From Pseudomonas sp. G.S.17 (lineage in GTDB: Bacteria > Pseudomonadota > Gammaproteobacteria > Pseudomonadales > Pseudomonadaceae): 64,000 nucleotides of DNA. The position numbers were made by a program, and so were the translations under genes. Below are positions 14,134 through 53,046 of the stretch, piece after piece (positions within the stretch are counted from its first letter, which is position 1; the number at the start of each line of letters is the position of its first letter). Below the pieces are notes generated by a model that saw nothing but the letters and a program-made list of their open reading frames with translations, searched no databases and was not told the origin of the DNA. The stretch lies in NCBI RefSeq assembly GCF_038096165.1, contig NZ_CP151076.1, positions 4,089,501 through 4,153,500 on the forward strand, given 5' to 3'.

Positions 14134-14142
14134 GGAGACATT

Positions 14143-33343: not shown

Positions 33344-33691
33344 TCAATGACTGATCATCCATGGCCTTCCTGCCGTCTTGCCTTTCAGCGCATGAGGATT
33401 GGCCTTGGTCGGCAGCACGGTTTTGCTCGGCGCACAGCAGCTGCAACCGCTGGGGTGGCGCTTGCTTTCCTGATACTCGGCCACGGTTTTGGGGGCGTTG
33501 GCGCTGCGTTCGTTGGTTTCGATGGCGCGGCGCTTGTTGCCTGACACCGTACTCAAACCCGGCGCCGACAAAATCACCCGCATGCTCGACTCGCCGCATT
33601 GCGGGCAGGCGCAAGGCATGCCGCTTTCGGCCATGGGTTTGAGCGCCGTGAAATCGCCACAGCTGGGGCAATCGAATTCGTACATGGGCAT
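33344..33691 (-). CDS. fmdB: FmdB-family zinc-ribbon protein
   Basis: A 115-residue protein. The N-terminal FmdB zinc ribbon is YEFDCPSCGDFTALK then CACPQCGESSMRV (two CxxC pairs). A basic tail follows with a second cysteine group (SGCSCCAPSK). FmdB was named as a putative regulator in the formamidase operon of Methylophilus. ATG 33691 has AGGGA 7 bases upstream; longer frames are discarded. It follows fmdA after a REP pair, which supports the name. The regulatory role is inferred from the literature, not the sequence. Confidence 0.85.
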   Translation of the reverse strand: MPMYEFDCPSCGDFTALKPMAESGMPCACPQCGESSMRVILSAPGLSTVSGNKRRAIETNERSANAPKTVAEYQESKRHPSGCSCCAPSKTVLPTKANPHALKGKTAGRPWMISH

Positions 33692-33818: not shown

Positions 33819-35048
33819 CTACAAATCGTAGGCAATCGGCAAATCCACCAACCCATCAATAAATCGGGTCGGGCCGTTGGCGTTGGGGTTGATGTCGAAC
33901 TGGAAGATTTCCGTCGGCAGCCACAAGGTCGCGCAGGCGTTGGGGATATCGACGATACCGCTGATATGCCCTTGCACCGGCGCAGAGCCAAGCAACGCAT
34001 AACCCTGGGCCGGGGAGTAGCCAAACTTGGTCAGGTAGTTGATCGCGTTCAGGCATGCCTGGCGGTAGGCGATGTTGACGTCCAGGTAATGCTGCTTGCC
34101 GGCCTCGTCCACCGAGATGCCTTCGAAGATCAGGTATTTGTTGTAGTTGGGCACGATGGGGCTGGGCTTGAACACCGGGTTCTTGATGCCGTATTTCTCC
34201 ATGCCGCCCTTGATCAGCTCGACGCGCATGTGCACCCAACCGGCCATTTCGATGGCGCCGCAAAAGGTGATTTCACCGTCGCCCTGGCTGAAGTGCAAAT
34301 CGCCCACCGACAGGCCCGCGCCGTCCACGTAAACCGGGAAGAACACCTTCGAGCCGCGCGACAAATCCTTGATGTCGCAGTTGCCGCCATGCTCACGGGG
34401 CGGCACGGTCCGCGCGCCGGTTGCGGCCGCCAGATCACGGGCCGGACCTTTGAGCTTGCCCAGATGCGCGGTTGCAGCAGAGGGCGGATTGGCCAGCGGC
34501 GGCACGCGGGTCGGGTTGGTGTCGATCAGCTCCTGCTCGCGCTTGTTCCATTCGGCGAGCATCTTGTGATCCGGCAGGCAACCGATCAGACCGGGATGGA
34601 TAAGACCGGCGAACTCCACACCCGGAATGTGCCGGGAGCTGGTCATCATGCCCTTGAAATCCCAGATGGCTTTTTGCGCCGACGGGAAGTGATCGGTCAG
34701 GAAGCCGCCGCCGTTATTGCGCGAGAAAAACCCGTTGAAGCCCCATTGGGAATCGGCACGTGCGCCGATGTCGAGCAGGTCCACCACCAGCAAGTCACCC
34801 GGCTCGGCGCCATGCACGCCAATCGGCCCGGACAGGTAATGCACGGTGGACAGGTCCACATCGCGCACATCGCTGGCGTCGTCGTTGTTCTTGATCGCGC
34901 CCGCGGTCCAGTCGTAGGTTTCGAGGATGAAGTCATCGCCCGGCTTGACCCACGCGGCCATGGGAATGTCCGGATGCCAGCGGTTGTGGATGTTTTCGTT
35001 TTCGGTGACAGGCTGGTTGAGGTCGACTTTGATCAGAGTTTCGGTCAT
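33819..35048 (-). CDS. fmdA: formamidase FmdA
   Basis: Amidohydrolase of the FmdA/AmdA family (409 residues), expected to hydrolyse formamide or short amides to the acid and ammonium in the cytosol. The sequence shows HNRWHPDIPMAAWVKPGDDF, VHYLSGPIGVHGAEPGDLLV, the HGGNCDIKDLSRGS segment and DLHFSQGDGEITFCGAIEMA, all typical of this family. AGGAG lies 7 bases before the ATG. It sits downstream of the five-gene ABC transporter and upstream of fmdB, all on the minus strand, so imported amide would be used directly. Exact substrate range cannot be read from sequence. Confidence 0.93.
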   Translation of the reverse strand: MTETLIKVDLNQPVTENENIHNRWHPDIPMAAWVKPGDDFILETYDWTAGAIKNNDDASDVRDVDLSTVHYLSGPIGVHGAEPGDLLVVDLLDIGARADSQWGFNGFFSRNNGGGFLTDHFPSAQKAIWDFKGMMTSSRHIPGVEFAGLIHPGLIGCLPDHKMLAEWNKREQELIDTNPTRVPPLANPPSAATAHLGKLKGPARDLAAATGARTVPPREHGGNCDIKDLSRGSKVFFPVYVDGAGLSVGDLHFSQGDGEITFCGAIEMAGWVHMRVELIKGGMEKYGIKNPVFKPSPIVPNYNKYLIFEGISVDEAGKQHYLDVNIAYRQACLNAINYLTKFGYSPAQGYALLGSAPVQGHISGIVDIPNACATLWLPTEIFQFDINPNANGPTRFIDGLVDLPIAYDL

Positions 35049-35106: not shown

Positions 35107-35170
35107 TTTCGCGAGCAAGCTCGCTCCCACATGTGAAGTGCGGCCAGTGGGAGCGAGCTTGCTCGCGAAG
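35107..35170. repeat. inverted REP pair between urtE and fmdA
   Basis: TTCGCGAGCAAGCTCGCTCC and GTGGGAGCGAGCTTGCTCGC face each other 17 bases apart. Confidence 0.9.
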
Positions 35171-35204
35171 AGGTCGGCTCAAACAACAAAGCTGCCGGCA
35201 TAAA

Positions 35205-35894
35205 TCACACCGACAAATACCGGCTGATCGTCGCTTCATCGACATTGGCCCGGGTCTCTTCGATGACGAAGCGGCCCTTCTCGATGACCAGGAAGCGATC
35301 AGCGATTTCCAGGGTGAACGACAGCACTTGCTCGGAGACCACGATGGTCAGGTTGCGCAAGGTGCGGATTTCTTTGAGGGTGCGGGCGATGTCCTTGATG
35401 ATCGACGGCTGGATGCCTTCGGTGGGTTCGTCCAGCAACAAAACCTTGGGGTTGGTCGCCAGCGCCCGGGCAATCGCCAGTTGCTGCTGTTGCCCGCCGG
35501 ACAGGTTGCCGCCGCGCCGACCGCGCATGTCGTAGAGCACCGGGAACAGCGCGTAGAGGTCTTCCGGAACGATGCCGCGAGCCGACGCGGGCAAGCCGGT
35601 CTGAATGTTTTCCAGCACGCTCATGGCCGGAAAAATCATTCGGCCTTGCGGGACGTAAGCCATGCCGTGCTCGACCCGCGAGTGGGTTTCCATGCCGGAA
35701 ACTTCCACGCCCGCCACCTGAATTTGCCCGCCCCATTGTGGGAGGATGCCCATCAAACTCTTGAACAGCGTGGTCTTGCCCATGCCGTTGCGGCCCATGA
35801 CCGCGACGATTTCCTGCTTCTCGACGTTAAGGTCCAGGTCATGAAGAATCTGGCTCTGGCCATAACCGCACGCCAGCTGATTGATCTTGAACAT
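35205..35894 (-). CDS. urtE: urea/amide ABC transporter ATP-binding subunit UrtE
   Basis: A 229-residue ATPase of the LivF/UrtE branch. Walker A is GRNGMGKTTLFKSLMG, the signature is LSGGQQQQLAIARAL and Walker B is VLLLDEPTEGIQPS. The phrase AYVPQGRMIFPAMSV is characteristic of UrtE. AAGGAG is 7 bases before ATG 35894; the long frame upstream to 36107 is a shadow of urtD. It is the fifth transporter gene, 13 bases after urtD. Confidence 0.94.
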   Translation of the reverse strand: MFKINQLACGYGQSQILHDLDLNVEKQEIVAVMGRNGMGKTTLFKSLMGILPQWGGQIQVAGVEVSGMETHSRVEHGMAYVPQGRMIFPAMSVLENIQTGLPASARGIVPEDLYALFPVLYDMRGRRGGNLSGGQQQQLAIARALATNPKVLLLDEPTEGIQPSIIKDIARTLKEIRTLRNLTIVVSEQVLSFTLEIADRFLVIEKGRFVIEETRANVDEATISRYLSV

Positions 35895-35907
35895 GCCGCG
35901 CTCCTTA

Positions 35908-36669
35908 TTAATGGCCCAGATACACTTCGATAACTTTCGGGTTTTTCTGCACCGACTCCATGCTGCCTTCGGCCAGGACCTTGCCTTGGTGCAGCACCGT
36001 GACCTTGTGCGCGATACTTTTGACGAATTCCATGTCGTGCTCGATGACCAGCACCGAGCGGCCCTGGCTGATGCGATTGAGCAACTCGGCGGTCTGCGAA
36101 CGCTCACTGACGCTCATGCCCGCGACCGGCTCGTCGAGCATCAACAGCTCCGGGTCCTGCATCAGCAACATGCCGATTTCCAGCCACTGTTTCTGGCCGT
36201 GGGACAGCAAACCGGCCTGCTGCTGGAGCAATTCGCCGAGGAAGATATCCGCCGCCACTTCGTTGACCCGCGCCACCACTTCGGCCGTACGCTTGAAGAA
36301 CAGCGCACCGAACACCGAGCGGCCTGCTGGAAAAGACATTTCCAGGTTTTCGAACACGCTCAAATTGTCGTAGATCGATGGGGTCTGGAACTTGCGGCCG
36401 ACCCCGGCGCGAACGATGTCGTACTCATGCATTTTGGTCAGCTCGCGCCCGTCGAACTGGATGCTGCCACTGGTGGCGCGGGTCTTGCCGCAGATCAGGT
36501 CGAGCACCGTGGTCTTGCCAGCTCCGTTGGGGCCGATCACCACGCGCACTTCATTGCGGTCGATGTACAGATTCAGGTCGTCCACCGCCTTGAAACCGTC
36601 GAAGGAAACCGTCAGCCCTTCGATGGCCAGCACCGGTTTGTGCATCTGAAAAGCGGTTGGGCCGCTCAT
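35908..36669 (-). CDS. urtD: urea/amide ABC transporter ATP-binding subunit UrtD
   Basis: A 253-residue ATPase of the LivG/UrtD branch. Walker A is GPNGAGKTTVLDLICG, followed by GVGRKFQTPSIYDNLSV. The signature is degenerate (LLSHGQKQWLEIGMLL instead of LSGGQ), which is normal for UrtD. Walker B is LLMLDEPVAGMS, and VLVIEHDMEFVKSIA follows. Its ATG overlaps the urtC stop by 4 bases, indicating translational coupling. Confidence 0.95.
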   Translation of the reverse strand: MSGPTAFQMHKPVLAIEGLTVSFDGFKAVDDLNLYIDRNEVRVVIGPNGAGKTTVLDLICGKTRATSGSIQFDGRELTKMHEYDIVRAGVGRKFQTPSIYDNLSVFENLEMSFPAGRSVFGALFFKRTAEVVARVNEVAADIFLGELLQQQAGLLSHGQKQWLEIGMLLMQDPELLMLDEPVAGMSVSERSQTAELLNRISQGRSVLVIEHDMEFVKSIAHKVTVLHQGKVLAEGSMESVQKNPKVIEVYLGH

Positions 36670-37883
36670 GGCTGAGTCTCCATGGAAGTGGCGGCGGTCT
36701 TGGAGGGCGTCGCGACAGGCCCCGGCGGCGGCGTAATGACGACCGCTCTGGCAATCACCGGCTCGGGTTTGTGCAGCACGCGGTCAAACCATTTGCGACC
36801 GTGGCTTTCCCACAACCCGGCCAGGCCGTTGGGGAAATACATGACCACGGCGATGAACAAGCCGCCCATCAGGTACAGCCACAACTCAGGGAAGGATTCG
36901 GAGAAATAGGTCTTGCCGTAGTTGACCAGCAGCGAGCCATACACAGCACCGAGCAGCGACATACGCCCGCCCACTGCGGCGAAAATCACCATCTCGATGG
37001 AGGGCACGATGCCCACGAACGACGGCGACATGAAGCCCACTTGCAAGGCGAACATCGCCCCGCCAATCGCCGAAAACGCTGCCGCGACGCAATAGACGAA
37101 GATCTTGAAACTGGCCACGTCGTAGCCGGAGAAACGCACGCGTTCTTCCTTGTCGCGCATGGCCATCAGCAAGCGGCCGAGCTTGGACGCCAGGATGAAT
37201 TTGCCGATCAGAATGCAGCCGAACAGTAAGGCGGCGTTGATGAAATACAAGGCCAGCTTGGCGCTGTCGTCGCGGATGTCCCAGCCCAGCAGCGTCTTCA
37301 GATCGGTGATGCCGTTGACGCCACCAGTCAGGCCTTGCTGGCCGATGATCAGCACCGTCAGGATCAGCGCGATGGCCTGGGTGACGATGGAGAAATACAC
37401 GTCGCCGACCCGACGCTTGAACATTGCCAGGCCGATCACCAACGCCAGCAATACCGGCACGGCGATCACCGCAATCACCGTGAAGGTGAAGCTGTGAAAC
37501 GGCACCCATAACCAGGGCAGTTCGGTGATCTGGTTCCAGTCCATGAAGTCCGGAATACCGGGCGTGGACTGGATTTTGGTGCTTTGCGGGTCAGAGGCTT
37601 CCAGCTTGAGAAACATCGCCATGCAGTAACCGCCAAGGCCGAAAAACACGCCCTGCCCCAGGCTGAGAATCCCGCCGTAGCCCCAGCACAACACCAGGCC
37701 GACCGCGACAAACGCGTAGGTCAGGTATTTGCCGACCATGTTCAGGCGAAACGCATCGAGGGTCAGTGGGAACACCACCAGAATCAGCACGGCGAGGATC
37801 AACAGGCCGATCACACCCTGCCGGCCGCCGAGCATACCGGCCCCCTCCCGGCTAAAGCCGGTCCTACGGTTCAGAGCATTCAT
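36666..37883 (-). CDS. urtC: urea/amide ABC transporter permease UrtC
   Basis: A 405-residue inner-membrane permease of the LivM/UrtC family with about ten hydrophobic segments. Typical stretches are CWGYGGILSLGQGVFFGLGG and the loop RDKEERVRFSGYDVASFKIF. It forms the channel with UrtB. The N-terminus is odd: residues 6-15 (RRTGFSREGA) are the translation of a REP element at 37842-37867. ATG 37883 has GAGG 7 bases upstream. A second start at codon 17 (MLGGRQGVIG) has GGGAGGGGG supplied by the REP itself, so the true start could be either. The C-terminal tail is Pro/Thr-rich. Confidence 0.93.
   Translation of the reverse strand: MNALNRRTGFSREGAGMLGGRQGVIGLLILAVLILVVFPLTLDAFRLNMVGKYLTYAFVAVGLVLCWGYGGILSLGQGVFFGLGGYCMAMFLKLEASDPQSTKIQSTPGIPDFMDWNQITELPWLWVPFHSFTFTVIAVIAVPVLLALVIGLAMFKRRVGDVYFSIVTQAIALILTVLIIGQQGLTGGVNGITDLKTLLGWDIRDDSAKLALYFINAALLFGCILIGKFILASKLGRLLMAMRDKEERVRFSGYDVASFKIFVYCVAAAFSAIGGAMFALQVGFMSPSFVGIVPSIEMVIFAAVGGRMSLLGAVYGSLLVNYGKTYFSESFPELWLYLMGGLFIAVVMYFPNGLAGLWESHGRKWFDRVLHKPEPVIARAVVITPPPGPVATPSKTAATSMETQP
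37842..37867. repeat. REP element within the 5' end of urtC
   Basis: CCCTCCCGGCTAAAGCCGGT then CCTAC is the same REP subtype as at 38922-38947, but here it lies in the reading frame of urtC. Confidence 0.85.
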
Positions 37884-37893: not shown

Positions 37894-38811
37894 CTATTTA
37901 CGTACTTTGCTGGAAAACAACCCTTGCGGGCGCATCAACAGAATCAGAATCACCGCCGACAGGGTCAGCACCTTGGCCATGGAACCGCTCATGAAGAATT
38001 CGGAAATCGACTGCGTCTGAGCGATGGCAAATGCTGAGGCAATGGTGCCGAACAGGCTTTGCGCGCCGCCGAACACCACCACCAGAAAGGTGTCGACGAT
38101 GTACAGCGAACCAGCGGTGGGCCCGGTGGAGCCGATGGTGGTGAACGCGGCACCGGCCACCCCGGCCACGCCGCAACCCAGGGCGAAGGTCATGCGGTCG
38201 ACCTTGCGGGTATTGATCCCCACGGCGCGGCTCATGATGCGGTTCTGTACCGTGGCCCGAACATGCAGGCCCCAACGGGTGCGATACAGCATCAGGAAAA
38301 TCGTCGCCGTCAGCAGAACCGTCAGGCCCATGACGAACAGGCCATTACGCGGAATCTCGATGGCATCGCTCAGACTCACCGAACCCATCAACCATTCCGG
38401 CGGCGTGGCGCTGACTTCCCGAGCGCCGAAGATCGACCGAAAGCCCTGCTGCATCACCAGCGACAAACCCCAGGTGGCGAGCAACGTATCCAGCGGACGA
38501 TGGTACAAGCGGCTGATCATCACCGACTCGACGACCCAACCCACCGCACCGGCCACCACGAATGACAACGCGATGGCGAAGAAGAAGTAATAAGGCTGCA
38601 TGGACGGCATGTACTGCAGCGTCAGGCTGGACATGACGTAAGTGGTGTAAGCGCCGATGGTGAGAAATTCGCCATGGGCCATGTTGATAACGCCCATCTG
38701 GCCAAAAATGATCGCCAGCCCCAGGGCCATCAGCAGCAGGACGCAGAACACGGAAAGCCCGTTGAACCCCTGCATCGCCGCGATGGCACCAAATTCCGAT
38801 AGCCATTCCAT
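37894..38811 (-). CDS. urtB: urea/amide ABC transporter permease UrtB
   Basis: A 305-residue inner-membrane permease of the LivH/UrtB family. Conserved parts are IIFGQMGVINMAHGEFLTIG, TLLATWGLSLVMQQGFRSIF and QSLFGTIASAFAIAQT. Many proteobacterial UrtB proteins carry a large extra N-terminal periplasmic region, which is absent here. That fits an amide-type (FmdE-like) permease as well as a short urea permease. It is separated from urtA by 158 bases containing a REP pair, and urtC follows 10 bases after its stop. Confidence 0.94.
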   Translation of the reverse strand: MEWLSEFGAIAAMQGFNGLSVFCVLLLMALGLAIIFGQMGVINMAHGEFLTIGAYTTYVMSSLTLQYMPSMQPYYFFFAIALSFVVAGAVGWVVESVMISRLYHRPLDTLLATWGLSLVMQQGFRSIFGAREVSATPPEWLMGSVSLSDAIEIPRNGLFVMGLTVLLTATIFLMLYRTRWGLHVRATVQNRIMSRAVGINTRKVDRMTFALGCGVAGVAGAAFTTIGSTGPTAGSLYIVDTFLVVVFGGAQSLFGTIASAFAIAQTQSISEFFMSGSMAKVLTLSAVILILLMRPQGLFSSKVRK

Positions 38812-38969: not shown

Positions 38970-40214
38970 TTACTGATAGCCTTTAGGAAACGGATTCGGC
39001 TCGATCAGCTCCGACTCGTAGATGACTTTGAACTGGCCGTCGGCCTGAACTTCGCCAATGCGCGTCTTGCTCCACAGGTGATGGTTTTCGTGGATTTTCA
39101 CGTAGCCTTCAGGTGCGGTTTTCAGCTCGATGCCAGGGGATGCAGCGACCACCTTGTCGACGTCGAAGCTGCCGGCTTTCTCAACGGCGGCTTTCCACAA
39201 CCACGGGCCCAGGTAAGCGGCCTGAGTCACGTCGCCCATCACCGAATCCTTGCCGTACTTGGCCTTGAAGCTGTCGACGAAGGCTTTGTTGTTGGGGTTG
39301 TCCAGGCTCTGGAAGTACTTCATCGACGCGAAGAAGCCCTTCATGTTTTCGCCGCCGATACCCAGCAGTTCGTCTTCGGTGACCGACAGCGTCAGCAAGG
39401 TCTGCTTGGTGGAGTCAACGCCTGCCGCCTTGAGCTGTTTGTAGAAGGCAACGTTGGAACCGCCGACGACCGCAGCGAACACCACATCAGGTTTTTTCAG
39501 CTTGACCTTGTTGATCAGCGAGCCGAACTGGGTGTTGCCCAGCGGGTAGTAATCCTCGCCAACCACGGTGCCGTGCAGCACGTTTTCAATGTGCTTGCGG
39601 GCAATTTTCATCGAGGTGCGCGGCCAGATGTAATCCGAGCCGATCAGGTAAAAGGTCTTGGCGCCTTTGGTCTTGGCGATCCAGTCCAGGCTGGCGAGAA
39701 TTTGCTGCGTAGCTTCCTGGCCGGTGTAGATCACGTTTTTCGACTGTTCCAGGCCTTCATAAAACGTCGGGTAATACAGCAGGCCGTTTTCTTTCTCGAA
39801 CACTGGCAACACCGCTTTGCGCGATGCCGACGTCCAGCAACCGAACACCGCCGCTACCTTGTCGCCGACCAGCAGCTTCTTGGCTTTCTCGGCAAAGGTT
39901 GGCCAGTCCGACGCGCCGTCTTCCTGTACGACTTTGATCTGCCGACCGAGGATGCCACCCGAAGCGTTGATCTGATCGATGGCCAGACGCTCGGCCTGGA
40001 TCGAACCGGTCTCGGAAATCGCCATGGTGCCGGTCGCCGAATGCAGTTGGCCCACGGTTACTTCAGTCGCGGTAACGGCAAGTCCGGTGGTGTTGGCGTC
40101 ATCGGCCCAAGCCACCTGGCCAAATACACCTGCCGCAATCAGCGAGAGCGCAGCTGCGCCCAACGCCAATCGACGCGGCAAAAAACGTTTGGCGCCTGTC
40201 AGTCGTGAATCCAT
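38970..40214 (-). CDS. urtA: urea/short-chain amide substrate-binding protein UrtA
   Basis: Periplasmic binding protein of 414 residues (LivJ/AmiC-like, type I fold). ATG 40214 has GGAG 7 bases upstream and is followed by a twin-arginine-like stretch (AKRFLPRRLALGAAALSL) and an AWADD processing site. Family segments include LHSATGTMAISETGSIQAE, AAVFGCWTSASRKAVLPVFE and LLYYPTFYEGLEQSKNVIYT, seen in urea and amide binders alike. It is first in the urtABCDE-fmdA-fmdB series. A triple palindrome lies about 100 bases upstream. Urea versus formamide/acetamide cannot be decided from the sequence. Confidence 0.93.
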   Translation of the reverse strand: MDSRLTGAKRFLPRRLALGAAALSLIAAGVFGQVAWADDANTTGLAVTATEVTVGQLHSATGTMAISETGSIQAERLAIDQINASGGILGRQIKVVQEDGASDWPTFAEKAKKLLVGDKVAAVFGCWTSASRKAVLPVFEKENGLLYYPTFYEGLEQSKNVIYTGQEATQQILASLDWIAKTKGAKTFYLIGSDYIWPRTSMKIARKHIENVLHGTVVGEDYYPLGNTQFGSLINKVKLKKPDVVFAAVVGGSNVAFYKQLKAAGVDSTKQTLLTLSVTEDELLGIGGENMKGFFASMKYFQSLDNPNNKAFVDSFKAKYGKDSVMGDVTQAAYLGPWLWKAAVEKAGSFDVDKVVAASPGIELKTAPEGYVKIHENHHLWSKTRIGEVQADGQFKVIYESELIEPNPFPKGYQ

Positions 40215-40315
40215 GTTCCCGCTCCTGTGCTGGTGGTTCGCCGAGATCCGGTAAAGGCGTCGTGGCGAGGTTGGAGCAAGCATGAAGTCGCGGGACAAAA
40301 GCCGGTATACGCACC

Positions 40316-40346
40316 ATGACGTACCGGGCTACGTCATTTGACGTAG
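40316..40346. promoter_or_regulatory. triple TGACGTA palindrome upstream of urtA
   Basis: ATGACGTA (40316-40323), TACGTCAT (40330-40337) and TGACGTAG (40339-40346) alternate in orientation. The last two lie within a perfect inverted repeat CTACGTCA-TT-TGACGTAG. The block is about 100 bases before the urtA start and lies between urtA and the divergent sensor-kinase gene. It is the best candidate binding site for the LuxR-type regulator encoded at 43950. Confidence 0.65.
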
Positions 40347-40396
40347 GGCCGGATAGGGGCAAAGCGAGGATGATTGCGCGCCTAGACACCCAACCC

Positions 40397-40486
40397 GTGG
40401 GAGCGAGCTTGCTCGCGAAGACAGTGTCTCAAACCGGGAAGATGCGCCTGATGTACTGACCTCTTCGCGAGCAAGCTCGCTCCCAC
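40397..40486. repeat. inverted REP pair between urtA and the sensor-kinase gene
   Basis: GTGGGAGCGAGCTTGCTCGC (from 40397) and CTTCGCGAGCAAGCTCGCTC (from 40463) are inverted copies. Confidence 0.9.
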
Positions 40487-40573
40487 GGTCGCGGTGATCA
40501 AAAGGCATCCCCCAGGCACGGAAGTTGCTGTCGCCAACTCCATAACCCTAAACATCCTTCTCAGGAATCCGCC

Positions 40574-43500
40574 GTGCGACCCTCCGGCTCTCAACGCATC
40601 GTCAAGGTGCGCCGCGATTACAACAGTCTGGTCGCCGACGAGACCATGGAGGACTACGCCTTACGCTTCACGCCGAAATCCTTTCGCAAGTGGTCGGAAT
40701 TCCGCATCGCCAACACCGCTGTCGGTGCAGTTTCGTTTCTGGCGCTGGAAGCCATCGGCGGCGCGCTGGTCATGAGTTACGGCTTCACCAACACCTTGTG
40801 GGCGATCCTCGCCACGGCGCTGGTGATTTTCCTCACCGGCCTGCCGATCAGCTACTACGCGGCCCGCTACGGCGTGGACATGGACTTGCTGACCCGTGGC
40901 GCGGGCTTTGGCTACATCGGTTCGACCATTACTTCGCTGATCTACGCCAGTTTCACCTTCCTGTTTTTCGCCCTCGAAGCGGCAATCATGGCCTTGGCCA
41001 TCGAGCTGTATTTCCACATTCCACTAGCCATGGCCTATGTGATTTGCTCGATCATCGTCATCCCGCTGGTGGCCTACGGCATCACCCTGATCAGCCGTCT
41101 CCAGATGTGGTCGCAACCGTTGTGGCTGACCTTGTTGCTGGTGCCCTACATCTTCGTGATCTGGAAAAACCCCGAAGCGCTCTCCGACCTGACCAGTTTT
41201 GCCGGGCGTGAAGGCGAAGGCGGCACCTTCAATCTGCTGTTTTTTGGTGCAGCGTTCAGCGTGGCGCTGTCGTTAGTGACACAGATTGGCGAACAGGTGG
41301 ACTACCTGCGCTTCCTGCCGGAGAAAACCCGCAAAAACCGCAAGCGCTGGTGGGCCGCGCTGCTCATGGCCGGGCCGGGCTGGATCATTCCCGGCGCGAT
41401 CAAGATCATGGCGGGCGCGTTCCTGGCGTTTCTCGCCCTGCAACACGAAGTGCCCATCGAACGCGCCGCCGAGCCGACGCAGATGTATCTGGTCGCGTTT
41501 CGCTATGTGTTCAGCTCGCCGGAATGGGCGCTGGCGGCCATGGTGCTGTTCGTGATCATTTCCCAGATCAAGATCAACCTGACCAATGCTTACGCCGGTT
41601 CCCTGGCCTGGTCGAACTTCTTCGCCAGGGTCACACACAGCCATCCCGGACGTGTCGTGTGGCTGGTGTTCAACGTGGCGATTGCCCTGATCCTCATGGA
41701 ATTGGGGGTCTTCGACGCCATTGAACAAGTGCTCGGTCTGTACGCCAACGTGGCCATCGCCTGGATCGGCACGCTGGTTGCCGATCTGGTGATCAACAAA
41801 CCGCTGGGCCTGTCGCCCAAATACATCGAATTCAAGCGCGCGCACTTGTACGACATCAATCCGGTGGGCGTCGGCGCTATGTCGATTGCCTCGCTGCTGT
41901 CGATCAGTGCCCATTTCGGGGCATTCGGCGCCCTGGCGCAGACCGCCCCGCCGCTGATTTCCCTGACCACCGCGCTGATCGTCGCACCGCTGATCGCCTG
42001 GTGGACCAAGGGCAAGTACTACATCGCCCGCACCAGCGACCCGTTGCAGCTGTTTCCCCTCGGCCAGCAGACCAGCCTGCGCTGCGGCCTGTGCAGTAAT
42101 GAATTCGAAACCCCGGACATGGCGTATTGCCCGGCCTACAGCTCGCCGATCTGTTCGCTGTGCTGCTCCCTCGACGCGCGTTGCGCCGACCAATGCAAAA
42201 GCCGCGCGCGCCTGTCGATGCAGTTTGAAGACGCCATCAGCCGACTGTTGCCGAAATTACCACTGCACTACCTGCACACCCGACTCGCCCAGTATCTGGG
42301 TTTGCTGACGGTGTTGTTGCTAACGATATCCGGCGCGCTGGCGGTGATTTACGGTCAGGTTTCCCACAGCCTGATCGACCAGTCTCCGACGGTGCATCAC
42401 ACGCTTTTCCTGGCGTTCCTCAAGGCGTTTTTCACCCTGTGCGTGTTCGCTGGAATCCTCGCCTGGTGGGTGGTGCTGACCCGGGAAAGCCGCCGCGTCG
42501 CCCTGGAAGAGTCGGATCGCCAGACCTCATTGCTGATGCAGGAAATCGCCGCCCACGACAAGACCGACCAAGCCCTGCAAAAAGCCAAGGAAGCCTCCGA
42601 GGCTGCCAATGCGGCGAAGAGCCGCTACGTCACCGGGCTGTCCCACGAGTTGCGTACGCCGCTGAACAGTATTCTCGGTTTCACCCAGATTTTACAACGC
42701 GACGCCGCAACTCCCGCCCACCAGCAAGACCCGTTGGCGACCATTCTGCGCAGCAGCTCGCATCTGCTGTCGTTGATCGACGGCCTGCTGGATGTGGCCA
42801 AGATCGAAGCGGGCAAGTTGCGTCTGGAACCTTCGGAAATCCTCTTTCAGGAATTCCTCCACGACCTCGAACATATGTTCGCCCCCACCGCCCGGGAAAA
42901 AGGCCTGGGCTTTCGCCTGGACGTGGTCGGCCGCATGCCCGCCGTGGTGCGCGGCGATGAGAAACGCGTACGGCAAATCCTGATCAACCTGCTGGGCAAC
43001 GCGGTGAATTTCACCGACAGCGGTGAAGTCTGCCTACGGGTCAGCTATCGGCGGGAAACCGCGATTTTCGACATCGTGGACACCGGCATCGGCATCGCCC
43101 CACAACAGATCGAACGGATTTTCCAGCCGTTCGAGCGCGGCGGACTGGTTCGCCAGGACAACGGCGTCGGCCTGGGTTTGACCATCACCCGCATGCTCAC
43201 CTCGTTGATGGGCGGCGCGCTGTCGGTGACCAGCCAGCCTGACGAAGGCACGCATTTTCAGGTACGGCTGTTTCTCTCCGAAGTGCGTGTGCCCAAGGCG
43301 GTGATCCATGTCGATCACGATGTGATGGGCTACGAAGGTCCACGCCGACTGGTGCTGGTGGTGGACGACCACATTGAACATCGCAAGGTCATCAGCGGCA
43401 TGCTCACACCGTTGGGTTTTGAGGTCGCCCAAGCGGCCAATGGCCAGGAAGCGATTCGTCAGGTGTCATTGCTGCATCCGGATCTGATCCTCATGGACCT

Positions 43501-43975
43501 GTCGATGCCGGACATGGACGGCTGGGAAACCAGCCGCCTGATCCGCCGCAACGCGCTGTCGCTGGCGCCGATCATCATTATTTCCGCCAACGCCAACCCC
43601 TTCGCCGACGACAAGGAGCGCAGTCTTCCCGAGGTCTGCAACGATTACCTGGCCAAACCGGTGCATATCCAGCAACTGCTCGACCGCATGCAGCATCACC
43701 TGCAACTGCACTGGCTGCGCCGGCTGCGCCCCGCGCCACTGATCAAACTGCCCTGGACGCTGCCGCCGCGTCAGGATCTGGAAGATCTGTACGAACTCTG
43801 TGGCTTGGGTTATGTGCGCGGCATTCAAGCCAAACTCGACGCCATCGAACGTGACAGCCAGCACAGCGCCAGCTTTGTCGCCGACCTGCGGATGCTCGCC
43901 AAAGGCTTCCGACTCGATGAACTCAGCCTGCAACTCAAGGAGGCCCTCAATGAACGCCCTGACTCAACCCGCTGA
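40574..43975 (+). CDS. NCS1-transporter / hybrid histidine kinase fusion
   Basis: A 1,133-residue membrane sensor. Residues about 20-490 form a CodB/NCS1-type nucleobase:cation symporter domain with about 12 helices (ISYYAARYGVDMDLLTRGAG; AGPGWIIPGAIKIMAG). A cysteine cluster follows at about 503-545 (CGLCSNEF, then CSLCCSLDARCADQCK), possibly metal-binding. Two more helices lead to a kinase core with phospho-His 691 in SHELRTPLNSILGF, the N box (INLLGNAVNFTDSG) and G boxes. A receiver domain has Asp975 in LMDLSMPDMDGW. The start is GTG 40574 with AGGA 7 bases upstream. Its 3' end overlaps the response regulator by 26 bases. It resembles CbrA in design (transporter fused to kinase), but with NCS1 instead of SLC5. 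It probably senses urea, amides or a related nitrogen source. Confidence 0.9.
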   Translation: MRPSGSQRIVKVRRDYNSLVADETMEDYALRFTPKSFRKWSEFRIANTAVGAVSFLALEAIGGALVMSYGFTNTLWAILATALVIFLTGLPISYYAARYGVDMDLLTRGAGFGYIGSTITSLIYASFTFLFFALEAAIMALAIELYFHIPLAMAYVICSIIVIPLVAYGITLISRLQMWSQPLWLTLLLVPYIFVIWKNPEALSDLTSFAGREGEGGTFNLLFFGAAFSVALSLVTQIGEQVDYLRFLPEKTRKNRKRWWAALLMAGPGWIIPGAIKIMAGAFLAFLALQHEVPIERAAEPTQMYLVAFRYVFSSPEWALAAMVLFVIISQIKINLTNAYAGSLAWSNFFARVTHSHPGRVVWLVFNVAIALILMELGVFDAIEQVLGLYANVAIAWIGTLVADLVINKPLGLSPKYIEFKRAHLYDINPVGVGAMSIASLLSISAHFGAFGALAQTAPPLISLTTALIVAPLIAWWTKGKYYIARTSDPLQLFPLGQQTSLRCGLCSNEFETPDMAYCPAYSSPICSLCCSLDARCADQCKSRARLSMQFEDAISRLLPKLPLHYLHTRLAQYLGLLTVLLLTISGALAVIYGQVSHSLIDQSPTVHHTLFLAFLKAFFTLCVFAGILAWWVVLTRESRRVALEESDRQTSLLMQEIAAHDKTDQALQKAKEASEAANAAKSRYVTGLSHELRTPLNSILGFTQILQRDAATPAHQQDPLATILRSSSHLLSLIDGLLDVAKIEAGKLRLEPSEILFQEFLHDLEHMFAPTAREKGLGFRLDVVGRMPAVVRGDEKRVRQILINLLGNAVNFTDSGEVCLRVSYRRETAIFDIVDTGIGIAPQQIERIFQPFERGGLVRQDNGVGLGLTITRMLTSLMGGALSVTSQPDEGTHFQVRLFLSEVRVPKAVIHVDHDVMGYEGPRRLVLVVDDHIEHRKVISGMLTPLGFEVAQAANGQEAIRQVSLLHPDLILMDLSMPDMDGWETSRLIRRNALSLAPIIIISANANPFADDKERSLPEVCNDYLAKPVHIQQLLDRMQHHLQLHWLRRLRPAPLIKLPWTLPPRQDLEDLYELCGLGYVRGIQAKLDAIERDSQHSASFVADLRMLAKGFRLDELSLQLKEALNERPDSTR

Positions 43976-44627
43976 AAACGGTGTGATCCTGATTGTCGAC
44001 GACACGCCGGACAATCTGGCTTTGCTCTCCGACGCGCTTGATGAAGCTGGCTACATGGTCCTCGTCGCACTGGACGGCACCAGCGCCCTGAACCGCATCC
44101 AGCGTCGCCGCCCGGACCTGATCCTGCTCGACGCCATGATGCCCGGCCTCGACGGCTTCGAAACCTGCCGACGCATCAAAGCCCAGCCCGACACCGCCAA
44201 CATCCCGGTGCTGTTCATGACCGCCCTGACCGACAGCGAACACGTGGTCAAAGGCTTCGAAGCCGGTGCCATCGACTACGTGACCAAACCCATCATCTGC
44301 AACGAAGTCCTGGCCCGCGTCGCCTCCCACCTGCGCACCGCCCGCATCCTGCAATCGGCACGCAACGCCTCACAATCCGCCAGCCTGGGCTTCAACGACA
44401 AACCCGCCTACGGCAAACTCTCCAGCCGCTTCCAACTCACCGAACGCGAAATCGAAGTACTGCGCTGGGTCGCCTGCGGCAAAACCAACAAAGACATCGG
44501 CGACATCCTCCAACTCAGCCCCCGCACCGTGAACAAACACCTGGAGCATATTTATATAAAGCTTGGGGTCGAGACGAGAACGGCGGCGACATCGGTGGCG
44601 TTGGCGGCGATGACGGATAGGGTTTGA
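43950..44627 (+). CDS. LuxR/NarL-type response regulator
   Basis: A 225-residue response regulator. The receiver domain (ILIVDDTPDNLALLSDALDE) has Asp61 in LLLDAMMPGLDGFE and the switch Lys in DYVTKPI. A GerE/LuxR HTH lies at about 160-225 (LTEREIEVLRWVACGKTNKD and LQLSPRTVNKHLEHIYIKLG). AAGGAGG is 6 bases before the ATG, inside the kinase gene, so the pair is translationally coupled. It is the cognate partner of the NCS1-kinase fusion and the likely activator at the palindromes upstream of urtA. Confidence 0.93.
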   Translation: MNALTQPAENGVILIVDDTPDNLALLSDALDEAGYMVLVALDGTSALNRIQRRRPDLILLDAMMPGLDGFETCRRIKAQPDTANIPVLFMTALTDSEHVVKGFEAGAIDYVTKPIICNEVLARVASHLRTARILQSARNASQSASLGFNDKPAYGKLSSRFQLTEREIEVLRWVACGKTNKDIGDILQLSPRTVNKHLEHIYIKLGVETRTAATSVALAAMTDRV

Positions 44628-44678: not shown

Positions 44679-45341
44679 TTAAACTCGCGTTTTAGGTAAC
44701 GCCCGAATTTCGTAACTCTCCGCTTCCAGTTCTAGCTGACCATAATAGAAAGCGCCTTGATATTGGCTGCTTACCATGACTCTGGCGCAATCAAGCTCGG
44801 CAGAATCCTTCACCCGACTAAATTCCAGAAGCGCACCGCCCCGGAAAATACAGTCTGCTGAAACGGGTTCGTTGTCACGGTTGTAGAAGTTGAATTTTTG
44901 TATACCGTTTATTTTAAAGGTGAAGGGTTGATATGGATTATGATTATCGTCCAGCGTTGTTAAGCTCAGCTCGAATGCATCGCTTTTGAAAACCCTTTCC
45001 AGACGCATCCGCTTAAGCGATAAAAATACGCGTAAGGTTGGGCTGAAAGCGCGCGATTGGAGTGGCTGGCAAAATACATAGAAAAGATCAATCACGGGTT
45101 TTAACGCAGCAAAACCGAACGCGAAAGCGGCCAGTGACGCAAGAAGCATCCCGACAGGTGCGCAAGCACCGCGCCGCCGTGCGACTCTATAAGTGCAAAC
45201 ATCAGGATCACGTATAGGCTCTGATACAACCCAGAAGGTGGCAACGCAAAAAGTTGTGAATAGCAAAAATATCCATAGCGTCCTCTCTACATTTTCAAGG
45301 CGTTCCCAACGTTCACCAAGGCGAAGATTTTTTAAACTCAT
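44679..45341 (-). CDS. membrane protein, possible second T6SS immunity factor
   Basis: A 220-residue protein with two N-terminal membrane helices (LWIFLLFTTFCVATFWVV and GMLLASLAAFAFGFAALKPV) and a soluble, beta-rich C-terminal part (LSLTTLDDNHNPYQPFTFKI). No family is recognised. It is the last gene of the vgrG operon, 5 bases after the preceding gene, and its DNA is visibly more AT-rich than the core genes, with a weak ribosome site. Position and composition are typical of an immunity or accessory protein for the pore-type effector, but this is inference. Confidence 0.7.
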   Translation of the reverse strand: MSLKNLRLGERWERLENVERTLWIFLLFTTFCVATFWVVSEPIRDPDVCTYRVARRRGACAPVGMLLASLAAFAFGFAALKPVIDLFYVFCQPLQSRAFSPTLRVFLSLKRMRLERVFKSDAFELSLTTLDDNHNPYQPFTFKINGIQKFNFYNRDNEPVSADCIFRGGALLEFSRVKDSAELDCARVMVSSQYQGAFYYGQLELEAESYEIRALPKTRV

Positions 45342-45346
45342 AAGAC

Positions 45347-46417
45347 TTAGTCCACATACCGAACATGCCGCGCCATCAGGTTCGGGCGTTTGAAGGTGTC
45401 GATGTTGTCGATATTTTCTAGCAGCTGGATTAGCTGCTGCTTGTAGGTTTCATCGTCCATGTCGATCCAGAAGCGCGGGTTGCGGCCGGTTTTCAGGTCG
45501 TGGGCGGCGGTGGTCGGGTCCAGGTGGCGAAACTCTTCATAGCGCGGCAAATCCGGCAGCGGGCGGCTGGTGTCCATGTAGTTCTGCAGGAAATCCCACA
45601 AAGCGCAGGGCATTTGCCAGCGGTTATCCAGGTTCACCAACGACGAGAAATTGATCACGATGTCCCTATAACGGTGGGCGATGCACAACACATGATTCAT
45701 CGAACCCTGCCGATCCGGCCCCGACTCCAGATAAGCATCGAACTCGTAAAACGGCGCAGTAATTTCGCCAATAGTGCCGTTCTTTTTGTATTCGCCGTTA
45801 TTGTTGTAATCGAATAGCGTGACCAGACCGGTGCGGCGGTTTAGCTCCCAGATGGGGCCTCGGGAGGGTTTTACCCAGAGCTTGGGGAATTTCCTCAAGA
45901 TTAATGAGGCTGCGGCCCATGCTACATATAACGGAAGCATCGTCACGTAAAACGTTTCATCGAACAAACCCCATAATGCCTCGAAATAAGGCTCGCGAGA
46001 CTTTGCTGCTAATGCAAGCGCAGTAAGAATGTATATGGGAGTAAATATCAGAGACCACCCTTTCCCAAAAATATACAAGTACGACCAAAATTGGGAGCGT
46101 GAAGACCAGAGCGAAAACCTGAACCGCTCATGGTCGTGCCGATCATGAAAATCTACATGTTCGTAAGGCGCAGGAACGTAAGTACCGGCCGCAATTTTCT
46201 CTTGGCGTTCTTTACGCATATCTTCACGAAAACGTAGGTTGTTCGGCGAGCGCCGTCGCATAAATGCGTCCGGTGCAAGGCTCAGCGCCCGCCCCCACGG
46301 TAAGCGCTTTTTGCTAAAACGCCTGAGCCATGACCGCTCCGTTGAAGCTTGTTGCTTAGGAATGCCGTCTGAACGATAAGCGGTATCTGCATAGTAAGGC
46401 GTCTTCTGGGTACTCAT
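45347..46417 (-). CDS. membrane protein, likely cognate immunity of the T6SS effector (DUF6708-like)
   Basis: A 356-residue protein with a long charged N-terminus (WGRALSLAPDAFMRRRSPNN), two central membrane helices (SLIFTPIYILTALALAA and YVTMLPLYVAWAAASLIL) and a cytosolic or periplasmic C-terminal domain. The latter begins GPIWELNRRTGLVTLFDYNN. I believe it belongs to the family listed as DUF6708, often found next to BTH_I2691-type effectors, but that is from memory. Its ATG overlaps the effector stop by 4 bases (ATGA), so the two proteins are made together. A membrane location is what immunity to a pore-forming toxin requires. Confidence 0.7.
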   Translation of the reverse strand: MSTQKTPYYADTAYRSDGIPKQQASTERSWLRRFSKKRLPWGRALSLAPDAFMRRRSPNNLRFREDMRKERQEKIAAGTYVPAPYEHVDFHDRHDHERFRFSLWSSRSQFWSYLYIFGKGWSLIFTPIYILTALALAAKSREPYFEALWGLFDETFYVTMLPLYVAWAAASLILRKFPKLWVKPSRGPIWELNRRTGLVTLFDYNNNGEYKKNGTIGEITAPFYEFDAYLESGPDRQGSMNHVLCIAHRYRDIVINFSSLVNLDNRWQMPCALWDFLQNYMDTSRPLPDLPRYEEFRHLDPTTAAHDLKTGRNPRFWIDMDDETYKQQLIQLLENIDNIDTFKRPNLMARHVRYVD

Positions 46418-49400
46418 TTCGCGGTCTTCGCCCGATTCTCGGTTTCGTCGGCCCAGAACAGCCGTTTGGTAACTTCAAAATCGGGTCTGGCGTAAGTCGA
46501 CCCGAAGGGGGTTGGATCTTTGGGCGGTGGCGCCGGAAAGACCCAGGTACGCTGCCCGTCATTGAGCGACAATTGAGCGCGCACGCGCCATACGTGATAG
46601 ACCTCGGGCAAGTTTTGCGCAGGTTCCGCCTTATAGGAGAAAGGTGTTTTGACGAACAGCTCCAGGGCGCCCGGCAATAGCCGATAGGCAACTGGCGTTA
46701 CAGCTATCTGCGAGCTGCTGGTCTTGCTGCGGTCGCTGTATTGATCGAAAAAGACTTCAAAGCTTTTCAGATTGAGGAAAGCCTGAGTCCCGAACTCGCC
46801 CGGTCCATTCAATAACCCGCTCAAATTACTTTCAATACGAATTCGCGTATTGGCGCTGCGCACCGGAAAAGGTACCGTGGCGCGAAAATCCAGCAGGCCG
46901 TCAGCAACGTATTCAGGGTTGCGGTCGATACTGATTCGGATATCGGCGAACAGACTGACCAGATAGTAGAAGGCATTCTGAGGGTCTTGCAGGTGTGGCG
47001 CGACATTATGCTGATCGTCGCCAAAGGGCCCTTTTTTTAGCCAGTCGTCGATGGGCTTGCTGCTCAGCCAGTACGACAATCCTGCGCCAGTGGCAATCAA
47101 TAACAGCGCAGCCCAACCCATAGGACTCAAACCAAGGAAGGTGCTGCCCCCAGCGACAACACTACCCAAAGCCGCCGTCAACCCGCCGGAAGCCATGACT
47201 AGTTGGCCTATATAGGCATCATCACCCCACCTGTAGGAATGCCACGCGTCGTAAATACTGATCCCGGTAAAAAGCAAACCTGCTCCAATCTGGCTGAACA
47301 AGCGAGCGCTGTACTCCTTAACTAGATACTCGCTTAAGGGACCCAGAAGCCGCTCCGCGAATGCTTCCGGAATGGTAAGCACAGTTTTGCGTCCAGCTGC
47401 CAAGACAGAATTACTACCAGCCAGCTTCACAGTCAGCGCCTCGAATGCGATAGCCAAATCAAGTCCCGCGCCCGCAACCCCGACAAAGCCACGAAGCCCC
47501 TCCTTCTCCCTAACCGTCTGTTCCCATCCGTCAAACTCATTACTCAGATTGTAAATCTCCAACCCCACAATCAGACCCGCCACGATCACCGAATCCAACA
47601 CGCGAAAAGCCGTACTGTCCCGCATCGAATCCCGCAGCTTGATCGCACTCTCCAGCCCACTCAGCTTGTCTGCCTTGTCCGCCGCGCGCTTGGCCACGTC
47701 TTGTTGCCAAGCGTCGTTAAACCGTTGATTGAGTCGGCTAACTGTCATGGCCGTACGGTGGTTGCGCGGGATGCCGAGCACGATTCGTTCTGGGGGCAGA
47801 TCCGGCTGCGGCCGAGCAAAACCGTGATCCTCGGCGGGGGATTTCATGACGCCATTCTGGTTGCGATAAACCCCGTATGCCTGTGCAGAGCGGCCGATGT
47901 TCTCGGGCATGTCGTCCAGGCCGAAAACGTAATAGGCCTTTCTCCGGGCGTCAGCGTGAGACAGGAAGTGCAGGTCGCCAAAGGTTTGCGGCAACATGCC
48001 GCGCAGTTGGGCGAGGCTGCGTCGATGCGCCGCTTCGTTCAGTCGAAAGCGTTTGGCAGCAGGGTCTTGCAGTGCAATGTGTTGCGCGCCATGGACCGCT
48101 CGTTCGGCGGCTTCGAGGGCGCCTTGCAGGTTTTCATTGATCGCGACCAGCGCAGCCGCGCCGGCCTTCGCTTCAAGGGTCAGGGTAGTATTGAGGCCCC
48201 CGCTTTTCAGCAAACTCGCCAAAAACATTGCATCGATCGTCGAGTACGCACCAGCGGGAGCAACACTGTCCTGTTCGGTACTGGCCAGTTCCGTCGCCCG
48301 AAAAGTGCCGTCGCCTTGATTGACCTCCGGGTTGGCGGGTGCCTGATATGGCGCGTCGAGATCCTGTTGCCCGGCATCCGGCCAGAGCATGCGGTGCATT
48401 GGATGTTGCGGGTCATTGCTGACGTGGGCGATCCACTGTTGGCCGACGCTGGCGTCGGGGCTGTAGAGGCTGAGGCCGGTCATGGCGTCGGTGATGTCGC
48501 CGCTGGCGGCCAACGGGTCGTAGCCCGACGGGCCCAGCGCCAGGGTGACGAACAGTTGGCTGACAAAATGAAAAGCCGCCGCGTATTTGAAGCCATCGAG
48601 GCTCAGGTGGTCGGCGAGGCATTGTTCAGTCTGCCGTTGTTGCAGGCACTCGCTGAGCAGCGATTGGCTCATTTCCTGCTGACGCCACAGCTGGGCGCGT
48701 TCGCTGCTGGCGGTGAAGCGGTTGATATCCAGCCGGCTCTTTTCCTTGAGCATGTCGAGTTGCTGATGCAGCGGGTTCTTCTTGCCGCCGATGGATTGCG
48801 GAACAATCAGTTGTTGCACCAGCAAGGCGCTGGCGTGATGCGGATAGCGCTGCGCCCGCTCGCCGCACAGTTCCAGCAGGTGACGCTGGTCATAAATCCG
48901 GGTGCTCAGATGCCGCAGGCGGTACTGGGTGTCGAGCAGCATCACGCCGTAGAGCGCGCGGGATCGCGCCGTTTGCAACACGTCTGCCGCAGGCGGTTGA
49001 GCCGTCCACAGGCCCGCATCGCCTTGGGTATTCGGGTCGACGATGTGCTCAAGGCATTGTGCCCAGGCGCCGATTTCCAGCGGCAATGGCACGTAAGGCG
49101 CGGTCCCCGCTTCACATAGCCGCACATGTTTGCGGGCAGCGCTGAATGCATTTGCCAGAAACTCTCCGCTCAGGTCGCACAGGTAGCGCGCTGGCTGGTC
49201 GATCATCCACTCAAAACCGGTCTGGCGCGCGCGTTGCGGGGCCGGGACTGACAGCGGAAAAGCGCCGCGATTGAGGTTCAACCAGGTGATATGGGCTCTA
49301 CTGGCCGCAGCCTGATTCTCCTTGTCACGCACATCAAAATTGCTGAAAGCGTCCAGCATGGCCACGCCATCCGGTCGGTTGGCAAAGACCGTTTTGGAGC

Positions 49401-50136
49401 GTTCTTTCGAGACCCGCAGGTCCGGGCTTTGACAGCGCTGACGACGCAACGCCGAGTCGCTTTCCAGACGCTGCAATCGAGCCCCGCTCAGCTGCACTTC
49501 GCTGAAACACAGTTGCGCGTCTACCGGTCGATCATTCCAGTTGGATGGTAACCAGATGTCGTCCAAAGCCTTGCCGGTAGCGAGGCGCGCTTCGTCGCCG
49601 AATCCCTCACCCTCGCGAAATTTCTCCAGTTCGATATCGTGATAGGTGGTGCGCTCGTCGCTGATCCGGACTTCCAGTTCACGCCACAGCCTGCCGTCGA
49701 CGAAGACATAAATAAACCCGGCGCGGCACAACACGGGAGTGCCATGATCGTGAGCGCTGTTGACGCCGGGCAGGGCCACAAAGGGCAGCACCGGGACGAT
49801 CTGGTTCCACTGTTGATCGAGTTGCCTCTTCGTAATGCGGGTTTCCGGAAGCGGCAACAGGATCGGCTTGCCCTGTGTGGTCTCGATTTCCAGCATCAGG
49901 CGATGCTTGGGCTCGCCGGACCAGTCCCAGACATGCAAGGCGCTGGGCGCGCACATGTAAGCGGTGACGATTTCGGGACGGTCTTGCGCGGTAACTGCAT
50001 CCAGCCGTTTGCTGGCGTCTTTCTCGTAGAAAGCCAGGCGTTGGGTCGAAGGATGATGCGTGCCAACCACCTGAACGATGAGTTTGTTGATTTCGCAGCA
50101 CGGGCCACGGCTCAGGGTGCCAACGGGATTAGGCAT
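46414..50136 (-). CDS. T6SS effector, VasX/BTH_I2691-like, putative membrane-targeting toxin
   Basis: A 1,240-residue protein. The N-terminal 300 residues (SRGPCCEINKLIVQVVGTHH, AGFIYVFVDGRLWRELEV) match the start of VasX-type toxins. The middle is helical and lacks a signal peptide. From about residue 860 several hydrophobic segments occur (VIVAGLIVGLEIYNL, VAGAGLDLAIAFEAL, IGAGLLFTGISIYDAW, MGWAALLLIATGAGLSYWL), as in colicin-like pore formers. The C-terminal 200 residues are beta-rich. AGGAG is 7 bases before ATG 50136, which comes just after the adaptor stop. Delivery on the neighbouring VgrG with the DUF4123 adaptor is inferred from the operon. The mechanism is not shown by catalytic residues. 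Confidence 0.82.
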   Translation of the reverse strand: MPNPVGTLSRGPCCEINKLIVQVVGTHHPSTQRLAFYEKDASKRLDAVTAQDRPEIVTAYMCAPSALHVWDWSGEPKHRLMLEIETTQGKPILLPLPETRITKRQLDQQWNQIVPVLPFVALPGVNSAHDHGTPVLCRAGFIYVFVDGRLWRELEVRISDERTTYHDIELEKFREGEGFGDEARLATGKALDDIWLPSNWNDRPVDAQLCFSEVQLSGARLQRLESDSALRRQRCQSPDLRVSKERSKTVFANRPDGVAMLDAFSNFDVRDKENQAAASRAHITWLNLNRGAFPLSVPAPQRARQTGFEWMIDQPARYLCDLSGEFLANAFSAARKHVRLCEAGTAPYVPLPLEIGAWAQCLEHIVDPNTQGDAGLWTAQPPAADVLQTARSRALYGVMLLDTQYRLRHLSTRIYDQRHLLELCGERAQRYPHHASALLVQQLIVPQSIGGKKNPLHQQLDMLKEKSRLDINRFTASSERAQLWRQQEMSQSLLSECLQQRQTEQCLADHLSLDGFKYAAAFHFVSQLFVTLALGPSGYDPLAASGDITDAMTGLSLYSPDASVGQQWIAHVSNDPQHPMHRMLWPDAGQQDLDAPYQAPANPEVNQGDGTFRATELASTEQDSVAPAGAYSTIDAMFLASLLKSGGLNTTLTLEAKAGAAALVAINENLQGALEAAERAVHGAQHIALQDPAAKRFRLNEAAHRRSLAQLRGMLPQTFGDLHFLSHADARRKAYYVFGLDDMPENIGRSAQAYGVYRNQNGVMKSPAEDHGFARPQPDLPPERIVLGIPRNHRTAMTVSRLNQRFNDAWQQDVAKRAADKADKLSGLESAIKLRDSMRDSTAFRVLDSVIVAGLIVGLEIYNLSNEFDGWEQTVREKEGLRGFVGVAGAGLDLAIAFEALTVKLAGSNSVLAAGRKTVLTIPEAFAERLLGPLSEYLVKEYSARLFSQIGAGLLFTGISIYDAWHSYRWGDDAYIGQLVMASGGLTAALGSVVAGGSTFLGLSPMGWAALLLIATGAGLSYWLSSKPIDDWLKKGPFGDDQHNVAPHLQDPQNAFYYLVSLFADIRISIDRNPEYVADGLLDFRATVPFPVRSANTRIRIESNLSGLLNGPGEFGTQAFLNLKSFEVFFDQYSDRSKTSSSQIAVTPVAYRLLPGALELFVKTPFSYKAEPAQNLPEVYHVWRVRAQLSLNDGQRTWVFPAPPPKDPTPFGSTYARPDFEVTKRLFWADETENRAKTAK

Positions 50137-50137
50137 G

Positions 50138-52842: not shown

Positions 52843-53046
52843 GGGCAAGTCCTTGGCCTGGGGAAAGGCAGAACTTTGCGCGTCGACAACCAATGTGTAA
52901 GTCGGAATCGTGGGACGTTAGTTGTGGGATGTTTCCTAAAGAGGATGCGATCTGGCCCTATCCAATCCGAGATCAAACATTCCCCAAACGAAACCCCCGC
53001 CGCGTTGCCCAACGTATTGACCCCCATCGCAACGGAGACTGCCCAG

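Follow-up and report, generated by a model that had tools for sequence, protein, structure and literature searches.

What does a histidine kinase sense when it begins with a transporter-like module, and which genes does it control? The question is raised by a locus of Pseudomonas sp. G.S.17 in a 64,000-nucleotide stretch of contig NZ_CP151076.1 (positions 4,089,501 to 4,153,500; hereafter the window, numbered from its first letter). A hybrid histidine kinase with an NCS1-like module and a LuxR/NarL-type response regulator are encoded there, divergently from the urtABCDE genes for a urea/amide ATP-binding cassette (ABC) transporter and from the formamidase gene fmdA. We propose, with a probability of about 0.7, that kinase and regulator form a two-component system controlling the acquisition of urea and short amides, in which the NCS1-like module serves mainly as an intramembrane receptor.

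Architecture of the kinase and its regulator

40574..43975, + strand, NCS1-like hybrid histidine kinase, 1133 amino acids (domain scans)
40646..42016, + strand, NCS1-like module, residues about 25 to 481, range aligned to CodB (homology)
42083..42196, + strand, eight-Cys linker, residues 504 to 541, invariant in 81/81 sequences, weak two-zinc-type fold matches
42281..42460, + strand, two further hydrophobic helices, residues about 570 to 629
42614..43276, + strand, HisKA and HATPase_c, H691 (Pfam domains, alignment)
43352..43690, + strand, receiver domain, D975 (Pfam domain, alignment)
43950..44627, + strand, LuxR/NarL-type response regulator (receiver plus GerE)

The preliminary description of this DNA, whose open frames our analysis bears out, had read the kinase as an NCS1/CodB-type transporter domain, a Cys cluster, a histidine kinase, and a receiver in one chain. 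A Pfam domain check recovered HisKA, HATPase_c, and the receiver but not Transp_cyt_pur, to which neither the kinase (at E ≤ 10) nor any of 70 family rows (at E ≤ 0.1) gave a match. The transporter domain was nonetheless borne out by homology and by the predicted model of the module, which has a complete NCS1 fold and fits CodB (34.7) and Mhp1 (27.1 to 29.3) best; the model fits CHT1 (22.8), SiaT (21.8), and DUR3 (21.8), chains that we take to be of the SLC5 type, less well. No Pfam match to the SLC5 solute/sodium symporter domain was found in the kinase or in the 70 family rows. Because the module is tied to Transp_cyt_pur only by way of homologous permeases, which do match this model, we call it NCS1-like. 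Some family members are labeled purine-cytosine permease-like in their source names (JGI).

The Cys cluster between the transporter domain and the kinase stood as described: it consists of eight Cys residues, all kept in the 81 sequences compared, and has weak fold matches to two-zinc domains. This segment occupies the STAC position in the kinase, and Pfam returned no STAC linker match from a library that was not checked for the STAC model. Mean column identity in the module was 88% over 23 Pseudomonas rows and 67% over 70 rows (row set A2 is the window plus 69 of the 80 loci surveyed below; row set A4 is the window plus 53). The C-terminal tail of the kinase beyond the receiver (residues about 1045 to 1133) was without a Pfam match.

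The coupling to a LuxR-type regulator was likewise confirmed, by a receiver-plus-GerE gene whose ATG at 43950 overlaps the 3′ end of the kinase gene. Across the survey, the regulator frame starts between −400 and +1500 bases from the kinase end in 68/80 loci, and D62 of the regulator is kept in all 69 aligned regulators.

Association with urea and amide genes

38970..40214, − strand, urtA (curated cut-off; start best placed at 40214)
37894..38811, − strand, urtB (curated cut-off)
36666..37883, − strand, urtC (curated cut-off)
35908..36669, − strand, urtD (curated cut-off)
35205..35894, − strand, urtE (curated cut-off; start picked within the longer frame 35205 to 36107)
33819..35048, − strand, fmdA, formamidase (NCBIfam equivalog cut-off)
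33344..33691, − strand, fmdB-type zinc-ribbon protein (zinc ribbon found)

These genes had been named in the preliminary description as divergent from the kinase, and the names hold: all lie on the opposite strand, the five Urt subunits exceed their curated cut-offs, FmdA scores 755 bits against an equivalog cut-off of 500, and FmdB has its zinc ribbon. A separate urease is present elsewhere in the host genome.

The kinase family is carried by many soil and water bacteria, and a protein search matched at least 8000 proteins at E ≤ 1e-5. Among the matches listed, we surveyed 80 named loci with flanks of up to 10 kb. In this survey, set beforehand as a refuting test, tblastn found at least one of urt (49 loci), ure (34), fmdA (30), and amiE (16) in the flanks of 70/80 loci. 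The remaining ten (L099, L101, L103, L107, L108, L115, L123, L127, L131, and L145) had none of the four in their flanks; the L107 contig begins at the kinase, and the genomes of all ten carry urease and urtA elsewhere. Apart from kinase and regulator, the only neighbor families found in at least 8 of the 80 loci were urt, fmd, ure, amiE, and hupE. Representatives of ureA, ureB, ureC, ureE, ureF, ureG, and hupE match the corresponding Pfam families; the amiE representative matches CN_hydrolase, the finer name being our assignment. Some loci bring these genes together, such as L146, with urtABCDE-fmdA divergent from the kinase and ureABCEFG after the regulator.

Co-occurrence points the same way. 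The full-length module was found in 25 of 119 Pseudomonas genomes (34 were matched; 9 of these, with no more than weak matches to the permease at E values of 2.6e-32 to 1.4e-6, were not counted), and fmdA (E ≤ 1e-100) was found in exactly the same 25 (Fisher P = 3e-26, a value that ignores shared ancestry). In four of them, fmdA lies away from the kinase locus, at 12 kb in G067, at 1.1 Mb in G117, and on a different contig in G048 and G093, where an assembly break is possible. No urtE was found within 1.5 kb upstream of fmdA in G067, G117, and G048, and fmdAB is therefore a separate unit there. In the wider set of 397 Pseudomonadota genomes, 65 were matched at E ≤ 1e-60, six of them twice.

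A quick tree of 70 modules has a deep split into 30 and 40 rows, with a Shimodaira-Hasegawa-like approximate likelihood ratio test value of 100 and without bootstrap. The first clade comprises 29 fmd-linked rows and L076; the second comprises urease-linked or unlinked rows and the second kinase of L113. Most clade-separating positions are conservative changes. Two kinase-regulator pairs run in one direction on the Curvibacter contig L113, the first next to fmd-type urtAB (2179 to 6520) and the second at 9881 to 14439. L076, a contig of a Pseudomonas metagenome-assembled genome (2 to 13011), has a first-clade kinase whose neighbors are ureABC and ureEFG in place of urt-fmd, and it lacks the relaxed first-clade operator described below. 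Four members with cyanobacterial names (P0160, Spirulina; P0185, Leptolyngbya; P0195, Oscillatoria; P0216, Leptolyngbyaceae) have a module identity of 64 to 67%, and either transfer or contamination could account for them.

Candidate operators of the two clades

40330..40345, no strand, candidate operator TACGTCATTTGACGTA, matched exactly nowhere else in the host genome
40308..40323, no strand, second, imperfect candidate operator TACGCACCATGACGTA, 22 bp from the first, center to center
40514..40529, + strand, sigma-54-like element AGGCACGGAAGTTGCT, 44 bp upstream of the kinase gene

The gap between urtA and the kinase contains the palindrome TACGTCA-NN-TGACGTA. Beyond its single exact occurrence, the host genome holds one site with 1 mismatch and two with 2. 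Comparison of loci ties this putative operator to the urt-fmd genes. The TACGTCA/TGACGTA pattern is found in 36/37 urtA-kinase intergenic regions (the window and 36 loci; shuffle expectation, 0.4), and the exact palindrome in 20/36 first-clade loci. Among the 119 Pseudomonas genomes, 22 have the exact palindrome: 21 of the 25 that bear the kinase, always 147 to 443 bp upstream of it, and 1 of the 94 others. That one genome is G045 (locus L161).

A relaxed form, TACGTYRNNYRACGTA, occurs at 43 sites in the 25 kinase-bearing genomes (reversed control pattern, 6): 23 at the kinase, 18 at 67 to 97 bp upstream of fmdA, and 2 elsewhere. The separately placed fmdA genes of G117, G067, and G048 are each preceded by such a site; in G093, just 37 bases upstream of fmdA are covered. 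The relaxed motif was present in 36/36 fmd-linked, 0/33 urease-linked, and 0/11 other loci, and its reversed control in none.

For the second clade, de novo repeats led to the pattern TACGCCA-NN-TGGCGTA. L113, a contig with both paralogues, was excluded from the two-clade operator counts. Of the 43 second-clade loci, 9 have the pattern at up to 1 mismatch (0 to 1 for three control palindromes) and 13 at up to 2 (3 for each control); at the latter threshold it precedes urtA in 11 of the 13 loci of this clade that bear urt. In a separate test, in all ten kinase-bearing genomes with urtA outside the flanks, a TACGCCA-type site with up to 3 mismatches lies upstream of urtA (five sites at 1 mismatch, three at 2, and two at 3). 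Random 450-bp windows reach up to 3 mismatches in 3.25% of cases and up to 1 in 0.45%, and an unrelated control palindrome stays at 4 to 6 mismatches in the same ten regions.

The regulators themselves differ in part between clades. In the 68/80 loci covered by this comparison, nearly all first-clade rows have the recognition helix RTVNKHLEH; second-clade helices include MTVKKHLER, ATVKKHLER, and RTVHKHLEH, and several second-clade rows have RTVNKHLEH again.

REP-like inverted repeats (GTGGGAGCGAGCTTGCTCGCGA) were also observed in the urtA-kinase gap (about 40398 to 40486) and in the urtE-fmdA gap (35108 to 35172), the latter in the place that the fmdA operator has in many relatives.

Proposed nitrogen gate and mechanism

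A sigma-54-like element, scored as at least 10 of 12 bases of the consensus, was found in the 200 bp preceding the kinase in 48/79 loci (shuffle expectation, 0.9; one locus with fewer than 100 bases upstream was excluded). By neighbor class, it was found in 21/36 fmd-linked, 24/33 urease-linked, and 3/10 other loci (shuffles, 0.48, 0.34, and 0.04). The kinase-regulator operon is thus probably read from a sigma-54 promoter, and its inducer would therefore be sensed under nitrogen limitation.

Comparison establishes the architecture, the gene association, the tie between operator sites and these genes, and two clades that differ in operator; on this basis, and by inference beyond it, we suggest a nitrogen-gated urea/amide receptor kinase that would work as follows. 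The kinase-regulator operon would come on when nitrogen is limiting. The NCS1-like module would bind urea and/or a short amide and thereby change conformation; the eight-Cys linker, which may hold metal, and the two further helices would relay this change to the kinase, which would autophosphorylate on H691. The phosphate would pass to D62 of the regulator, either directly or by way of D975 and a phosphotransferase encoded elsewhere. The regulator would then occupy the 7-2-7 operators in the urtA-kinase gap, and in many relatives also those upstream of fmdA, and would act as an activator rather than a repressor, turning on urtABCDE and fmdA in the first clade and the urease-type urt genes in the second. 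Urea, or urea plus short amides, is favored over amides alone as the ligand because the modules of both clades share the same invariant polar residues and both clades associate with urea genes.

Weighing of alternatives

The regulatory link between kinase and urt-fmd, which the preliminary description had offered as an inference, is supported by the linkage in 70/80 loci, the co-occurrence with fmdA, the operator sites, and the urease and urtA genes of the ten unlinked cases. It is thus highly improbable that the kinase has other targets and merely travels with urt or ure, with the palindromes belonging to another regulator. The operators were found by position and not by binding, and the urt regulator could be unlinked; however, the exact palindrome follows the kinase across Pseudomonas genomes, and sites also stand at displaced fmdA genes and at urtA genes outside the flanks in kinase-bearing genomes. 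Less certain is what the module does. It may be unlikely, but is far from negligible, that the regulon is right and the module is mainly a working transporter for urea, an amide, or another small solute, only modulating a kinase that answers some other cytoplasmic or metabolic signal. The module retains a complete NCS1 fold in the predicted model, and the SLC5 part of CbrA binds and transports L-histidine yet is dispensable for kinase activity, according to PMC7096432. Against this, an ABC transporter for the presumed substrate adjoins, which should make a second uptake route less needed.

The ligand could also be a nucleobase, hydantoin, allantoin, or similar NCS1 substrate, with the urea and amide genes acting downstream in its breakdown. 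Characterized NCS1 transporters carry nucleobases and hydantoins, and some stand-alone relatives of the module adjoin an aldehyde-dehydrogenase-like gene; but no nucleobase or hydantoin family is among the neighbors that recur in at least 8 of the 80 loci, and we consider this ligand very unlikely, if slightly less so than a kinase merely carried along. Least credible to us is an eight-Cys linker that senses metal or redox state, with the NCS1 module reduced to a scaffold in the membrane. Nickel is required by urease, and the invariant Cys residues and weak two-zinc matches would suit such a sensor, but the module is as strongly conserved, unlike what would be expected of an idle scaffold.

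Several observations weigh against the receptor system that we prefer. The NCS1 assignment of its module has no direct Pfam support, and sensing by that domain is not to be assumed because the transporter domain of CbrA is not essential for signaling. The position of a site does not prove which regulator would bind it. In the first clade, G023 has no relaxed site, G090 has none at the kinase, and fmdA is without one in 7 of the 25 genomes, that of the window included. In the second, two of the ten distant urtA sites deviate from the pattern at 3 positions, four match the first-clade pattern just as closely, and in seven of the ten regions 3 mismatches are also reached by a control palindrome that differs by one base per half-site. 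Genome-wide, the second-clade pattern is weak (14/65 kinase-bearing genomes of both clades versus 27/332 others). Further, the covariation of helix and operator is partial, because some second-clade regulators keep the first-clade helix.

Other features of the window

Convergent with the regulator, 44679 to 52893 (− strand) may form a type VI secretion cargo module. It includes a VgrG-like gene (50734 to 52893), a DUF4123 protein (50138 to 50824), a 1240-amino-acid protein (46414 to 50136) with a weak VasX_N match under the cut-off, and two frames without a Pfam match (45347 to 46417 and 44679 to 45341).

Relation to known systems and significance

The closest described kind is that of the SLC5/STAC histidine kinases CbrA/CbrB, CrbS/CrbR, and RpuS/RpuR, in which a histidine kinase is likewise fused to an entire transporter-like domain and which control transport and catabolic genes; some also have a C-terminal receiver and an adjoining LuxR-type regulator (PMC9100948, PMC7096432). 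The present kinase differs in that its transporter part is NCS1-like and not SLC5, in its eight-Cys segment and two helices in place of STAC/PAS, and in its presumed targets, which are urea/amide genes and not acetate, pyruvate, or histidine genes. With CodB and Mhp1, its module shares the predicted NCS1 fold, but it is fused to a kinase and is not recognized by the Pfam model. Urea/amide ABC transporter genes also reportedly stand beside a formamidase gene in the FmdDEF type of Methylophilus, which Mills et al. are said to have described in 1998; the dedicated kinase-regulator pair and putative operators set our locus apart. The regulator has the receiver and GerE of the NarL/FixJ type, and its presumed targets carry inverted repeats of the 7-2-7 geometry known for NarL operators, but the half-site is TACGTCA (TACGCCA in the second clade) and the regulon is different.

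A full-text literature search, beyond whose reach most subscription papers lie, found no description of an NCS1-type kinase. The genome papers on Dechloromonas aromatica (PMC2907700, Table 4; 1131 amino acids) and Ectopseudomonas guguanensis (PMC13296017) each list a kinase of this sort next to urt genes; in their accessible parts, neither names a transporter part or tests the kinase. Judging from gene order, and from length in Dechloromonas, both are probably family members.

We put forward tentatively, at a shade less than even odds, that these proteins form a widespread, uncharacterized class of receptor kinases, each with an NCS1 transporter turned into a urea/short-amide receptor and a FYVE/RING-like two-zinc linker that joins it to the kinase. 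The class would comprise two paralogous lineages, formamidase linked and urease linked, with regulators that recognize distinct 7-2-7 operators; one genome may have both close together. Transporter-fused kinases have been described for the SLC5 type; if the proposal is true, a second transporter family, NCS1, would have been put to this use. The sensor end of a family of this size is without a Pfam label, and the predicted operators make its regulon directly testable. The two clades would offer a natural experiment in which the divergence of sensor, regulator, and operator can be followed after a duplication.

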